From NCBI GenBank assembly GCA_028821475.1, contig JAPPGB010000167.1, forward strand, positions 1-34,455: a stretch of DNA of 34,455 nt, written 5' to 3'. Origin of the DNA: Spirochaetaceae bacterium (GTDB lineage: Bacteria; Spirochaetota; Spirochaetia; SZUA-6; Bin103). Of the stretch, positions 1,301 to 32,068 are shown one piece after another. The position numbers and the translations under genes were made by a program. Below the pieces are notes generated by a model. That model worked only from the letters and a program-made list of their open reading frames with translations, was not told the origin of the DNA and did not search any database. Positions within the stretch are counted from its first letter, which is position 1. Each line of letters begins with the position of its first letter.

Positions 1301-1322
1301 AAAGAAAAAGGCCCTCTGGCCG
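1301..1322 (-). terminator. Weak intrinsic terminator after the SRP RNA gene
   Basis: On the minus strand a short GGCC-AGAG-GGCC hairpin is followed by TTTTTCTTTT, ending 14 bp before the dnaX start codon. The stem is only 4 bp, so termination is probably partial and could allow read-through into dnaX. Confidence 0.5.
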
Positions 1323-1335
1323 CCGCCGATTGATT

Positions 1336-1408
1336 ACGGCTCCTGCTCGCATCGCTTACCGCTGCTACCTTCCGGTCCTGACGGGGTTGGGCGGACGAGC
1401 ACAGCGTA
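1336..1408 (-). ncRNA. ffs: Small signal recognition particle RNA (4.5S type)
   Basis: The minus strand holds the conserved SRP RNA domain IV core, GTCAGGACCGGAAGGTAGCA at about 1364-1383, with the GGAAGG tetraloop segment and the asymmetric AGCAGC loop that binds Ffh. The outer arms TGCTCG (1396-1401) and CGAGCA (1344-1349) pair, giving the expected long hairpin. No Alu domain is seen, so this is the short bacterial form. The exact ends are estimated from pairing. It lies between the tRNA genes and dnaX on the same strand. Confidence 0.9.
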
Positions 1409-1435
1409 GATCGGAGACGAACCAGATGGGCTTCT

Positions 1436-1523
1436 CGGAGAGAGTGGGATTCGAACCCACGGTACCCGGTTTGAGTACACACGCTTTCCAAGCGTGCACC
1501 TTCGGCCTCTCGGTCATCTCTCC
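1436..1523 (-). tRNA. tRNA-Ser(GGA)
   Basis: The acceptor stem GGAGAGA/TCTCTCC is perfect, and a long class II variable arm is present. The anticodon loop TTGGAAA gives anticodon GGA, which reads UCC and UCU. The discriminator is G, as usual for serine, and CCA is not encoded. It is the last of five tRNAs before ffs. Confidence 0.96.
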
Positions 1524-1581
1524 CGGCGCCGGCCCGTGCAACACCCGCGGTGGAACCGGGGTGTGGCGCGGCCGCCGGAGG

Positions 1582-1671
1582 CGGAGAGAGTGGGATTCGA
1601 ACCCACGGAGCCAGCATACGCGGCTCAACGGATTTCGAGTCCGCCCGATTCAACCGCTCTCGCATCTCTCC
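1582..1671 (-). tRNA. tRNA-Ser(CGA)
   Basis: A class II tRNA with acceptor GGAGAGA/TCTCTCC, discriminator G and anticodon loop CTCGAAA, giving anticodon CGA (UCG). The long variable arm is formed by the segment after GTTGAGCC. CCA is not encoded. It shares its acceptor stem with the neighbouring Ser(GGA) gene, suggesting tandem duplication. Confidence 0.96.
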
Positions 1672-1732
1672 GTGCACGACGCAACTACACTCCCGCGTAC
1701 GTTCCCGCGGAAACGGGTTGCGCTCGCATCTG

Positions 1733-1807
1733 CGTGCCCAAGAGGACTCGAACCTCTGACCTCTAGATCCGCAATCTAACGCTCTATCCGGACTGAGCTA
1801 TGGGCAC
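1733..1807 (-). tRNA. tRNA-Arg(GCG)
   Basis: The acceptor GTGCCCA/TGGGCAC is perfect, and the short variable loop and overall sequence resemble arginine tRNAs. The anticodon stem TTAGA/TCTAG encloses loop TTGCGGA, so the anticodon is GCG (+ strand 1770-1772), reading CGC and CGU. Most bacteria instead use an A34 (inosine) tRNA-Arg(ACG) for these codons. CCA is not encoded. It sits in the middle of four serine tRNA genes. Confidence 0.92.
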
Positions 1808-1841
1808 GAACAATGGCGCGACGGCTGGCCGCCGCACCGTT

Positions 1842-1928
<87 letters not shown>

Positions 1929-1956
1929 CGGTGGTGCATGCCCGAAGCGGTGGTTG

Positions 1957-2041
1957 CGGAGAGGGAGGGATTCGAACCCCCGGAGCACCTTGGCTCAACG
2001 GTTTTCAAGACCGCCTCCTTCGACCTCTCGGACACCTCTCC
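1957..2041 (-). tRNA. tRNA-Ser(TGA)
   Basis: A class II tRNA with acceptor GGAGAGG/CCTCTCC, discriminator G and anticodon loop CTTGAAA, giving anticodon TGA (UCA and, by wobble, other UCN codons). It is the first gene of the tRNA-ffs run, about 23 bp downstream of the predicted transcription start. Confidence 0.96.
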
Positions 2042-24869: not shown

Positions 24870-24954
24870 GCTGCGGTGGTGGAATTGGTAGACACGCTAG
24901 CTTGAGGGGCTAGTGGGCGTTTAGCCCGTGAAGGTTCAAGTCCTTTCCGCAGCA
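24870..24954 (+). tRNA. tRNA-Leu(GAG)
   Basis: Acceptor GCTGCGG/CCGCAGC, the class II D-arm GAATTGGTAGACACG typical of leucine tRNAs, anticodon stem CTAGC/GCTAG with loop TTGAGGG (anticodon GAG, reading CUC/CUU), a long variable arm and discriminator A. CCA is not encoded; ACC follows. It is followed by a short non-coding stretch (24955-25077) with a CCCGG/CCGGG stem. Confidence 0.96.
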
Positions 24955-25077: not shown

Positions 25078-26040
25078 TCAGGGGATCAGCAGCAGCTTGC
25101 CGGTGGTGGAGCGGCCGGCCAGCGCGGCGTGCGCGGCGGCCGCCTCGGCGAGCGGATACTCGCGGTGGATCAGCACGTCCAAGTCGCCGGCGGCAACCCA
25201 GGAGAACAGCTCGGCGCTGCGCGCCGCCAGTTCGCTTCGCTCGGCGATGTAGTCGGCCAGGGTCGGGCGGGTGAGATACAGCGAGCCGCCCTGCGACAGC
25301 ATCGCCGGCTCGAAGCCGGTCACCGGTCCGCTCGACTGGCCGTAGCTCACCAGCACGCCGCGCCGGCGCAGCGCCGCCAGCGAGCCGGCGAAGGTGGCCT
25401 GCCCCACCGAGTCGTACACCACGTCGACGCCGGCGCCGCCGGTGAGGCGGCGCGCCTGCTCGGGTACGTCGCCGTAATCGAGCACGTGGTGGGCGCCGAG
25501 CGCGCGCACCATGGCGGCCTTCTCCGGCGTGGAGCAGGTTGCCAGCACGGTGGCGCCGCGGCGCCGCGCGGCCTGCACCAGGAGGCGGCCGACGCCGCCG
25601 GCGGCCGCGTGCACCAGCGCCGTGGAGCCGGCCTCCAGCGGCGCGGTGTCGGTGACCAGGTAGTGGGCGGTAAGGCCCTGCAGGAACACCGCCGCCGCCA
25701 GCCTGGTGGACAGCGTGTCGGGCAGCACCACCACCGCGCGCGCCGGTACCACGGCATACTCGGCGTAGGCGCCGGCGGTCATGGCGTAGGCGACGCGCGC
25801 GCCGGGCGGCACGGTGGTGACGCCGCTGCCGACGGCATCGATCACTCCGGCACCCTCCATACCGGGAGTGAAAGGGGTGGCGACGGGGTAGAGACCGGTG
25901 CGCTGGTAGATGTCGATGAAGTTGACACCCGCCGCTTCGATTCTGACGCGGACTTCGTGCGCACCCGGTTCGGGTACGGGTAGGTCGGTGATGCGGAGGA
26001 CCTCGGGTCCTCCGGGCGCAGAGACTTGTATCGCTTGCAT
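25078..26040 (-). CDS. Zinc-free MDR-family NAD(P)H:quinone reductase-like oxidoreductase
   Basis: A 320-residue medium-chain reductase. The N-terminal GroES-like domain has RIEAAGVNFIDIYQRTGLYP, a quinone reductase hallmark, and lacks the catalytic-zinc Cys/His pattern. The Rossmann domain has AAAGGVGRLLVQAARRRGA for NADPH. The protein ends in TTGKLLLIP, typical of the family. The physiological substrate is unknown. The start ATG at 26040 lies 5 bp after the nrdB stop, so it is probably the last gene of the nrd operon; a functional link to ribonucleotide reduction is only suggested by this placement. Confidence 0.92.
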   Translation of the reverse strand: MQAIQVSAPGGPEVLRITDLPVPEPGAHEVRVRIEAAGVNFIDIYQRTGLYPVATPFTPGMEGAGVIDAVGSGVTTVPPGARVAYAMTAGAYAEYAVVPARAVVVLPDTLSTRLAAAVFLQGLTAHYLVTDTAPLEAGSTALVHAAAGGVGRLLVQAARRRGATVLATCSTPEKAAMVRALGAHHVLDYGDVPEQARRLTGGAGVDVVYDSVGQATFAGSLAALRRRGVLVSYGQSSGPVTGFEPAMLSQGGSLYLTRPTLADYIAERSELAARSAELFSWVAAGDLDVLIHREYPLAEAAAAHAALAGRSTTGKLLLIP

Positions 26041-26045
26041 CGTGG

Positions 26046-27059
26046 CTAATCCCAGTCGAGGGCGCCGGCGGGCTGGTACTCGGTCACCCGGGTCTCGAAA
26101 AAATTCTTTTCCTTGTTCAGGTCCATGGTGTGCCCCATCCACGGGAACGGGTTCTCGGTCTCGTACTGGCGCTGCAGGCCGATACGCTCGAGCCTGCGGT
26201 CGGCGACGTACTCGACGTAGCGGGCGAACTGCACGGCGTTGATGCCGAGCAGCCCGTCGGGGCAGGCGTCGTGGGCGTACGCCTGCTCGAATTCCACGCC
26301 GCGCCGCACCAGGCCCACGACCTCCGCCTGCAGCTCGGCGGACCAGGCGGCCGGATACTCCTGCTTGATGGTGTTGATCAGTTCACAGCCGAACGCCAGG
26401 TGCACGCTCTCGTCGCGCATGATGAACTCGAACTGCTCCCCGATGCCGACCATCTTGCCCTGCCGTTTGAGCGCGAGCATCATGGCGAACCCGGCGTAGA
26501 AGAACACGCCCTCCATGATCACGTAGTAGCCGATCAGGTCACGCAGGAAGCGCTGCACGTTGACGGTGCGGTCGGCGGCGGCGGGCGAAATCAGGTCGAA
26601 CGACGGATCGAAAATCGACTTCGTGATCTCGATCACGAACTGGTCCTTCTCGCGGATGCTCGGGATGGTGTGGTACATGGTGTAGATGCGGTCGGGATCG
26701 AGGCCGAGCGAATCGCTGCAGTAGATGAAGGTGTCGGTGTGAATCGCCTCCTCGAACGCCTGCCGCAGCAGGTACTGGCGGCATTCCGGGTTGGTGACGT
26801 GGCGGTACACCGCGAGCACGATGTTGTTGGCGGTCAGCGACTCGGCGGTGGAGAAGAAGCCGAGGTTCCACAGGATCAGGCGCCGCTCGGTGCCGCTCAG
26901 CACGTCCGGCGCCTTCCACTGCTCGACGTCCTTCTGCATCGACACTTCTTCCGGAACCCAGTTGTTGGCCACGCCGTTCTTGTAGAACTCGCGCGCCCAC
27001 GGGTAGGTGAGCGGGAGAATCTTGTTCGGGTCGGTGGCGGAAGCGCCGATGATCGGCAT
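26046..27059 (-). CDS. nrdB: Ribonucleotide reductase class I small subunit, class Ic-like (no radical tyrosine)
   Basis: A 337-residue ferritin-like subunit. The predicted metal ligands are Glu73 (TAESLTANN), Glu104 and His107 (EEAIHTDTF), Glu183 (VIMEGVFFY), and Glu217 and His220 (RDESVHLAF). The position of the radical tyrosine (E. coli Tyr122) is Phe111, and the first ligand is Glu instead of Asp. Both are hallmarks of the Chlamydia-type class Ic enzyme, which uses a Mn/Fe cofactor in place of a tyrosyl radical. Tyr113, two residues on, matches a conserved class Ic tyrosine. The cofactor type is inference from these residues. It starts 3 bp after nrdA on the same strand. Confidence 0.95.
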   Translation of the reverse strand: MPIIGASATDPNKILPLTYPWAREFYKNGVANNWVPEEVSMQKDVEQWKAPDVLSGTERRLILWNLGFFSTAESLTANNIVLAVYRHVTNPECRQYLLRQAFEEAIHTDTFIYCSDSLGLDPDRIYTMYHTIPSIREKDQFVIEITKSIFDPSFDLISPAAADRTVNVQRFLRDLIGYYVIMEGVFFYAGFAMMLALKRQGKMVGIGEQFEFIMRDESVHLAFGCELINTIKQEYPAAWSAELQAEVVGLVRRGVEFEQAYAHDACPDGLLGINAVQFARYVEYVADRRLERIGLQRQYETENPFPWMGHTMDLNKEKNFFETRVTEYQPAGALDWD

Positions 27060-27062
27060 GGG

Positions 27063-29990
<2,928 letters not shown>

Positions 29991-30043: not shown

Positions 30044-30310
30044 TTACTGCTGTTCCGGCGTTGCGTGTTCCGGAAAGAGCTCGCGCTGCACGGCGGCGGC
30101 GTCCGCGCCCGCCTGCGCGGTCGCCGCGTCCGGTCCGCGCACGGGAACCGGCAGGTAGGTACCCTCGTCGATGGCGCGTTCCACGTCAGCCTCGATAAGC
30201 TGAATGAGCCGTCGAGTCATTGAGGTGCCGCGTAGCGCGCAGACTGCATGAAACTGGTCGCGCAGCCGTATTGGCACCTGCCTGAGGTTTATGGCCCCGT
30301 AGGCGCGCAT
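30044..30310 (-). CDS. Small ribbon-helix-helix (Arc/CopG-type) protein upstream of nrdA
   Basis: An 88-residue protein. Residues 5-45 fit a ribbon-helix-helix fold: a beta strand GAINLRQVP, helix A RLRDQFHAVCALRG and helix B SMTRRLIQLIEADVERA. The C-terminal 40 residues are Ala/Pro-rich without a toxin-binding motif I recognise. The ATG at 30310 has AAGGAG 4 nt upstream; the longer frame starting at 30379 lacks such a site. It lies 53 bp upstream of nrdA on the same strand and has three TGATAC repeats over its own promoter. It could be an autoregulating repressor of the nrd operon or an orphan antitoxin. No toxin gene is adjacent. Confidence 0.75.
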   Translation of the reverse strand: MRAYGAINLRQVPIRLRDQFHAVCALRGTSMTRRLIQLIEADVERAIDEGTYLPVPVRGPDAATAQAGADAAAVQRELFPEHATPEQQ

Positions 30311-30335
30311 CTTGCTCCTTCCTGCCATAGCTGCC

Positions 30336-30398
30336 GGTATCATAAGCACCTGATGCGGCAGGGGTATCAACCGTATCACTTGTATTATCGGCAGTCAA
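30336..30398 (-). promoter_or_regulatory. Promoter with three TGATAC repeats before the RHH-nrdAB genes
   Basis: On the minus strand TTGACT (30393-30398), 17 bp and TACGGT (30370-30375) form a plausible promoter. TGATACG (30372-30378) and TGATACC (30363-30369) are direct repeats 9 bp apart that cover the -10, and a third TGATACC lies at 30336-30342. Such repeats are typical of RHH operators. The remaining gap to the mutY-like gene (30399-30522) shows nothing clear. Confidence 0.5.
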
Positions 30399-30522: not shown

Positions 30523-31359
30523 TCATGGTAGATAAATGGATTGTCGGGTGGCCGGGGGGGCGCGGTGCCCGGCGATGCAGACCAGGGCGCCGGTGTGGGT
30601 CAGGAACTGCTCGGCGGCCAGGTCGGCCACCACCGCGGCGAGCCGTTCGTCGGCGCAGCGCTCCTGCAACTCGGCGAGCGGCAGGCAGCGGCGGTCGGTG
30701 AGCAGGCGCAGCACGCGCCCGCGCAGCTCGCGCCGCGACCCGGCGAACGGTTCCTGCCGGCTGTAGTGGGCGCTGCGCCGGTTCGGGTTGCCGGGGCGCC
30801 GGCCGAGCACCGCGCCCCAGTCCATCAGCGCGTAGTACCAGTGCCGCGGCCGCCGGCGGTCGAGGGTGCGCGCCACCAGCGGCAGCAGGGCGGCATCCGG
30901 TACGTTGTCGGCGGCGGGGAAGAACTGGTGCAGGAACAGGCGTCGGATGTTGGTCTCGATGAACACCGCCGGTTGCGAGAAGGCGAACGCGAGCACGGCG
31001 CCGGCGGTGGCCGGGCCCACCCCCGGCAGGCGCAGCAGTGCGTCGCGGTCGGCCGGCAGCAGGCCGCCGTGCTCGCTCACCACGGCGCCGGCGGCGCGCT
31101 GCAGCGCCAGCGCCCGGCGGTTGTAGCCAAGGCCGGTCCAGCGTTCCAGGACCGCGGACAGCGGCGCCGCGGCCAGGGCGGCGGGGTCCGGGAAGCGCGC
31201 CAGGAAGCGTGCGTAGTGGTCGAGCGCGCGCGTCACCTGGGTCTGCTGCAGCATCACCTCCGACACCAGGATGGCGTACGGGTCGCGCGTATCGCGCCAC
31301 GGCAGAACGCGGTAGTGGCGCCGGCCGTGCCAGCACACGCGGCGCCGGAACCGTTCCAC
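30523..31359 (-). CDS. MutY-like HhH-GPD DNA glycosylase lacking the iron-sulphur cluster
   Basis: About 278 residues from a GTG at 31359; the start is uncertain because the frame is open upstream. It has LPWRDTRDPYAILVSEVMLQ with the MutY catalytic Glu (Glu34), the helix-hairpin-helix LPGVGPATAGAVLAFAF and the helix after FIETNIRRLFL. The catalytic Asp of MutY and Nth is replaced by Glu135. The four-Cys [4Fe-4S] motif is absent, replaced by NPNRRSAHYSRQEPFAGSRR, followed by a small winged-helix-like end. This looks like a separate FeS-free branch of the adenine-glycosylase family. The damage recognised is unknown. It is divergent from the pseudogene to its right. Confidence 0.8.
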   Translation of the reverse strand: MERFRRRVCWHGRRHYRVLPWRDTRDPYAILVSEVMLQQTQVTRALDHYARFLARFPDPAALAAAPLSAVLERWTGLGYNRRALALQRAAGAVVSEHGGLLPADRDALLRLPGVGPATAGAVLAFAFSQPAVFIETNIRRLFLHQFFPAADNVPDAALLPLVARTLDRRRPRHWYYALMDWGAVLGRRPGNPNRRSAHYSRQEPFAGSRRELRGRVLRLLTDRRCLPLAELQERCADERLAAVVADLAAEQFLTHTGALVCIAGHRAPPATRQSIYLP

Positions 31360-31439
31360 CGCGGCGTCGTCGAGCGCCGCCGTGCCGGCTTCGGGCGCGC
31401 TGACGGAGCGGACCGGTCCGCGGCCGGCGCCCGTCCCGC

Positions 31440-32068
31440 CGGCCCGGCGGGCTTCGCCGTGACGGTCCGGCAGCACGCCGCGCCCTGCGCGCTCGCGGCG
31501 CACACCGTGGCGGTGGCGACCGGCTTCTTCGACGCGCCGGTCCGGCTCGGCATTCCGGGTGAGGACCTGCCCAAGTGCTCGCACTGCTTCCATGACGGGC
31601 ACCCCTATTATGGCCGGCGGGTGGCGGTCGTGGGAGGCGGCAACTCGGCCGTGGAGACCGCTTTCGACCGGCAGCGCGCCGGCGCCCTGGTGACGCTGGT
31701 TCACCGCTCCGCCGAGTTGCGCCGCGGGGTCAAGTACTGGGTACGGCCGGAACTGGAGAACCGCATCGCCGACGGCGCCATCGAGGCGCGTTTCAACACG
31801 TCGGTGGAGGCCGTGGAGCCGGACGCCATCGTGGTGCGCGGCCCCGGCGGGCGCGAGCGGCTTGCGACGCCGTGCTGTTCCGGCGTTGGCAGCGACCCGG
31901 CAACCGCGGGTGCCGGAGCATGATCCGGCCACCTTGGAGACCGCGGTGCCGGGGCTGTTCGTATGCGGCGCGCTACTCGCCGGCAAACGTCGCCGGCAGC
32001 GTGTTTCATCGAAGACGGCCGGCACCACGGCGAGCGCATCGTCGCCGCCGTCCTGCGCCGCCCTCACT
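31440..32068 (+). pseudogene. Remnant of a thioredoxin reductase/YpdA-like flavoprotein
   Basis: An open stretch starting near 31450 reads VATGFFDAPVRLGIPGEDLP, then RRVAVVGGGNSAVETAFDRQ and GVKYWVRPELENRI. These are the NADPH-binding half of a YpdA/thioredoxin-reductase-like protein. The FAD-binding N-terminus (a GxGxxG about 110 residues earlier) is missing. After about 31870 the homology jumps frames: HDPATLETAVPGLFVCGALL in one frame, then GSVF and IEDGRHHGERIVAAVLR in others, caused by at least three small insertions or deletions (an extra C and an extra T near 31990-32010). It ends next to the aldo/keto reductase stop. Confidence 0.8.

Follow-up and report, generated by a model that had tools for sequence, protein, structure and literature searches.

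Ribonucleotide reductase (RNR) makes every DNA precursor. The locus described here raises the question of what controls RNR transcription in a spirochaete family in which the familiar repressor is missing. NrdR, a Zn-ribbon/ATP-cone protein, represses bacterial RNR genes (PMC4009431, PMC12176259). It has been called the universal bacterial RNR repressor (PMC12051234), and it often controls its own gene too (PMC9110341). We analyzed a stretch of 34,455 nucleotides (the window) from one genome, G000, together with two other species of the same genus (G001 and G002) and a member of a sister genus (G003), all of one family.

NrdR (models TIGR00244 and PF22811) was not found in any of these four genomes of the family. 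It is present in most of the class. Of the 61 genomes in the relatives set, 45 carry it, as do 9 of 14 controls. Of the six families sampled in the order, f1, f3, f4, and f6 lack NrdR in every sampled genome, and f2 and f5 have it. A preliminary description of this DNA had proposed looking for nrdR and for NrdR boxes. Neither is found: the gene is absent from the genome, and the box ACACWATATATWGTGT has no match in the window at up to three mismatches.

The minus strand of the window carries, in this order, a gene for a protein of 88 amino acids (P0001), nrdA, nrdB, and a zinc-dehydrogenase-like ORF (Table 1). This confirms the earlier statement that a small gene heads an nrdA-nrdB-oxidoreductase cluster. 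The true start of the dehydrogenase-like ORF probably lies inside the ORF as called. The nrdA product is the only match to PF02867 in G000. A second, partial RNR barrel match is seen in G001 only (G001:C314:3404-3787, L102), with no TGATAC nearby.

Table 1. Positions of the features of the nrd locus in the window. Regulatory assignments are predictions.
Feature	Position	Strand	Basis
Zinc-binding dehydrogenase/quinone-oxidoreductase-like ORF after nrdB	25078..26142	-	PF00107, PF08240
nrdB, ribonucleotide reductase small subunit	26046..27059	-	PF00268
nrdA, class I ribonucleotide reductase large subunit, N-terminal ATP-cone	27063..29990	-	Pfam PF02867, PF00317, PF03477
Gene of P0001 (88 aa), likely RHH protein and candidate regulator	30044..30310	-	Start from ribosome site and conservation
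Predicted parts of P0001: strand segment AINLRQV; helices 14-27 and 31-49; tail of roughly 39 aa			
Ribosome-binding site AGGAAGGAG	30315..30323	-	Sequence
Extra TGATAC copy, a further 27 bp downstream; not kept in G002	30337..30342	-	
Putative operator repeat 3, TGATAC, 9 bp from repeat 2	30364..30369	-	
Possible extended -10 TGATACGGT, overlapping repeat 2; 17-bp spacer to -35	30370..30378	-	Inferred
Putative operator repeat 2, TGATAC, without mismatch in all three species	30373..30378	-	
Putative operator repeat 1, degenerate TAATAC (TGATAC in G002), 9 bp from repeat 2	30382..30387	-	
Possible -35 TTGACT (G002 TTGACG; G001 GTGACA)	30393..30398	-	Sequence comparison; inferred
mutY-like adenine glycosylase gene, upstream, start approximate	30523..31410	-	Translation; same mutY-nrdA order in G003

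Elsewhere in the window, a frame-broken remnant next to mutY (31460-31990, plus strand) reads like a YpdA/thioredoxin-reductase-type flavoprotein, and its counterpart in G002 is an intact-looking ORF (L069 1725-2786, minus strand). Five clustered tRNA genes and a small SRP RNA lie at 1320-2041 (minus strand), and a further tRNA at 24870-24954 (plus strand).

The small gene had originally been read from a GTG at position 30379. We move its start to the ATG at 30310, which is likely to be the true one: the ribosome-binding site AGGAAGGAG lies 4 nt upstream of this ATG, and the orthologues resemble P0001 from there onward, so that both the ribosome site and conservation favor it over the GTG. With this start, the TGATAC repeats fall in the 5' non-coding region.

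P0001 itself has no family match in Pfam, NCBIfam, or PHROG. Its affiliation was approached through relatives and through fold. When the three orthologues were built into a profile, it picked up short proteins of the same order (E 1e-5 to 1e-6), as well as one in G000 (E 0.0014) that passes the FitA-like_RHH cut-off (30.3 versus 27 bits). Several short relatives in the order match ribbon-helix-helix (RHH) models, namely, FitA-like (PF22513), RHH_5, RHH_10, and ParG, one of them above the curated cut-off, and the CopG-like model PF07878 is also matched by distant relatives there. The structural model of P0001 has a pLDDT of 63.5 (75-82 in the core), with the two helices placed as a strand-helix-helix fold of 45-50 residues would require and with the strand not formed in the monomer. 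Its structural neighbors are mostly RHH proteins (KacA, CopASO, TacA, Arc, MatP, and ParG; Z 4-6); the cleanest matches reach Z 5-6 and 1.5-2.4 Å over 40-48 residues, at Foldseek E-values above 0.5. All three orthologues share Asn8 and Arg10. Thus, the RHH assignment of the preliminary description gains weak support from the matches of relatives and from fold, and P0001 is likely to be an RHH protein.

The genome's second small RHH protein, which is FitA-like, is encoded near an IstB-like ATPase fragment (G000:C155:173-304, L082). Five weaker RHH matches (L004-L008) lie in unrelated contexts, none of them at nrd, and were set aside; matches of P0001 to retinol dehydratase among PDB sequences were judged to be due to chance.

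Upstream of the gene lies a core array, TAATAC-N3-TGATAC-N3-TGATAC, with three units at a 9-bp period. The three TGATAC copies first noticed in the promoter region, two of them 9 bp apart, are confirmed at their exact coordinates, and the degenerate copy adds a fourth. The hexamer is not unusual in the window as a whole (6 copies versus 4.6 expected); three same-strand copies within 42 bp were seen in none of 300 Markov-simulated windows. The sequence TGATACNNNTGATAC occurs without mismatch only once in the 5.73-Mb genome, at the nrd array. At up to two mismatches, there is no excess of sites in G000 (103 versus 115 in a reversed control), which lends no support to a broad regulon and suggests a dedicated local regulator. 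One such site with two mismatches (G000:C76, L112) lies among overlapping ORFs, collagen-like and adhesin-like, with no dNTP gene, and was rejected as a target.

A promoter might lie beneath the array. Within TGATACGGT, the hexamer TACGGT can be drawn as a -10 element 17 bp from TTGACT. A consensus promoter scan found no promoter here, and we treat this one as a weak candidate.

We find that gene and array are conserved together within the genus. The RHH gene stands directly before nrdA in all three species, with a gap of 2 bp to the nrdA start codon in the case of G002, so the neighborhood, whose loss would have spoken against a regulatory link, is kept. Among 26 genomes of the order, clear orthologues of P0001 occur in the same genus only (aligned identity 86% in G002 and 55% in G001), and a scan of GTDB genome contigs returned only the two sister species. 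Another 392 genomes of the phylum yielded no relatives at E 1e-6, and none were found in IMG/VR viral contigs, phages, or plasmids; on this last result, we rejected a phage or plasmid origin. In G003, mutY is followed directly by nrdA, with no RHH gene between them. Gene order thus indicates that mutY is the ancestral neighbor of nrdA, and the simplest history would be insertion of the RHH gene between the two in the ancestor of the genus.

The repeats are likewise conserved as a discrete block upstream of the RHH gene. Between G000 and G002, the upstream DNA shares one 45-bp block (41 of 45 positions identical, 91%; E 3e-13 in the pair), outside which it does not align; in G002, about 2.2 kb of additional sequence separates the RHH gene from mutY. 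The block in G002 reads GTTGACGTGCCGATGATACAAGTGATACGTTTGATACCCTGCCG, with three perfect TGATAC copies at exact 9-bp spacing. G001 has a weaker array at the same place, TGAGAC-N3-TGATAC, with one perfect copy. There is no array at nrdA in G003, where pair sites at one mismatch number 5, versus 6 in the reversed control.

Linkage of this kind is no proof of binding. The repeats might be the operator of another, unlinked factor, with the RHH protein acting elsewhere in a partition- or antitoxin-like role, and ParG-type and antitoxin-type RHH proteins do have a similar size and fold. We nevertheless regard this as unlikely, because gene and array occur together and adjoining in all three members of the genus, while the sister genus has neither at nrdA. 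Furthermore, no toxin or ParA gene adjoins the P0001 gene, whose neighbors are mutY and nrdA, and tandem direct repeats are a known layout of RHH sites, as in the heptads bound by ParB of pSM19035 (PMC9499535).

A search for the repeat elsewhere, also suggested by the preliminary description, led to the promoter region of a probable dNTPase gene in G002. In this genome, TGATACNNNTGATAC has two overlapping mismatch-free copies at the nrd promoter and a single one elsewhere. The 17-bp core GATGATACAARTGATAC has exactly two perfect matches in the 4.8 Mb of G002, one at the promoter of nrd and one at that of the dNTPase gene, and no other match has fewer than three mismatches; its best match in G000 is at nrd. 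About 1e-4 perfect matches to GATGATACAARTGATAC would be expected in G002, a figure to be read with the fact that the R in the query was set after both sites, including the dNTPase site, had been seen. With the nrd sequence alone at up to one mismatch, about 0.004 matches would be expected. The second site (G002:C9:9727-9741; L090 1501-1515) holds the putative operator pair without mismatch and in inverted orientation. It lies about 33 bp upstream of an HD-domain gene, and a possible -10 of that gene, TATCAT, overlaps it.

The HD protein of G002 carries PF01966 and PF19276 and matches 2hek (E 2.8e-47), EF1143 (2o6i; 1.7e-28), and SAMHD1 (3e-22). It is probably a SAMHD1/EF1143-like dNTP hydrolase; EF1143 of Enterococcus hydrolyses all four dNTPs (PMC12186491). 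G000 has no match to this gene, so the second link rests on one genome, G002. G001 and G003 have HD genes that are more distantly related, and the loci examined around these contain no TGATAC.

The second site also bears on whether the conserved block is a promoter only, consisting of a -35, a spacer, and an extended -10, with TGATAC as part of the -10 region and no operator at all. A TTGAC-17/18-TACnnT arrangement with a TG extension can be drawn in both G000 and G002, with repeat 2 inside it. We consider this reading very unlikely, since the block runs past the -10 over the third repeat and contains an exact 9-bp triple repeat. In addition, the perfect 17-bp site at the dNTPase gene is inverted relative to that gene, and thus shared promoter elements are not the cause of the match.

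Taken together, we propose that P0001 is a genus-specific, dimeric RHH autoregulator of the RHH-nrdA-nrdB operon, acting through the conserved repeats, and in G002 also of the dNTPase; on the sequence comparisons above, we hold this to be probable. Dimers of the protein would sit next to one another on the tandem 9-bp repeats (consensus GATGATACAARTGATACNNNTGATAC). Because the array covers the presumed promoter, bound P0001 would block RNA polymerase, and negative autoregulation would then keep nrdAB at a fixed level. The same site lies over the presumed dNTPase promoter of G002, and in that species the regulator may control both the synthesis and the breakdown of dNTPs. In this family without NrdR, P0001 would stand in locally for NrdR while having no ATP-cone, and dATP would still be sensed by the ATP-cone of NrdA. 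The order of the genes, the conserved gene and site, the uniqueness of that site, the second site, and the absence of NrdR are computed results; from these, we infer binding of P0001 to the array, repression, and a relieving signal, if there is one.

P0001 is probably a repressor, although the position of the sites alone does not decide this. It could instead activate nrd, and both activation and repression are described for the RHH protein AmrZ (PMC3325190). We think activation quite unlikely here, as the array lies over the inferred -10 of nrd and over the presumed -10 of the dNTPase gene, an arrangement that usually means repression.

A broader claim would be that, in one spirochaete genus, an RHH protein has replaced NrdR in regulating the dNTP pool, acting on nrd and, in one species, on a SAMHD1-like dNTPase through the same operator. 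We advance this only tentatively. G003 and families f3, f4, and f6 have no NrdR and also no P0001-type gene beside nrdA; the example of G003 indicates that the RHH gene is not an obligatory replacement. Nonetheless, groups without NrdR exist (four of the six sampled families of the order), and the locus offers a concrete candidate for a replacement. It supplies a named protein, a named putative operator, and a second putative target in dNTP breakdown. We found no papers linking an RHH protein to RNR control in the literature searched, which mostly did not include subscription journals. If the proposal is true, P0001 would be the first RHH regulator of RNR within that literature, and the locus would show how a bacterium can couple the making and the destruction of dNTPs independently of NrdR.

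Several known RHH systems resemble parts of this locus. P0001 shares with Arc a strand pattern recognizable by eye (FNLRWP in Arc, INLRQVP in P0001) and a fold match of Z 5-5.8 over 40-49 residues. However, the hhalign probability of 0.2% indicates no relation, and Arc is a phage repressor with other target genes. The models of FitA-like and CopG-like antitoxins (PF22513 and PF07878) are matched by distant relatives of P0001 and not by P0001 itself. Unlike RHH type II antitoxin genes, the P0001 gene has no toxin gene adjacent to it; in all three species, it is followed by nrdA.

The partition proteins offer an architectural parallel. Over the two helices, 25 residues of ParG (1p94) and P0001 are 40% identical (DQFHAVCALRGTSMTRRLIQLIE / TRFKAACARKGTSITDVVNQLVD; hhalign probability 71%), although the profile E-value to ParG is only 0.37 and, unlike ParG, P0001 has no ParA neighbor. 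As with the ParG and omega proteins, tandem repeats at the P0001 locus lie over the gene's own inferred promoter, a likeness of architecture only. The omega/ParB protein of pSM19035 is likewise an RHH protein on contiguous short repeats, in its case 7-bp heptads (PMC9499535). In contrast, the P0001 array has a period of 9 rather than 7 bp and fewer units, and no sequence match was found.

Like NrdR, P0001 would control nrd transcription at sites in the nrd promoter. Unlike NrdR, it is a protein of 88 amino acids with neither a Zn ribbon nor an ATP-cone (TIGR00244 and PF22811 tested), and it is encoded in the nrd operon itself. Finally, where NrdR has two palindromic boxes, the P0001 locus has tandem direct repeats of 9 bp.
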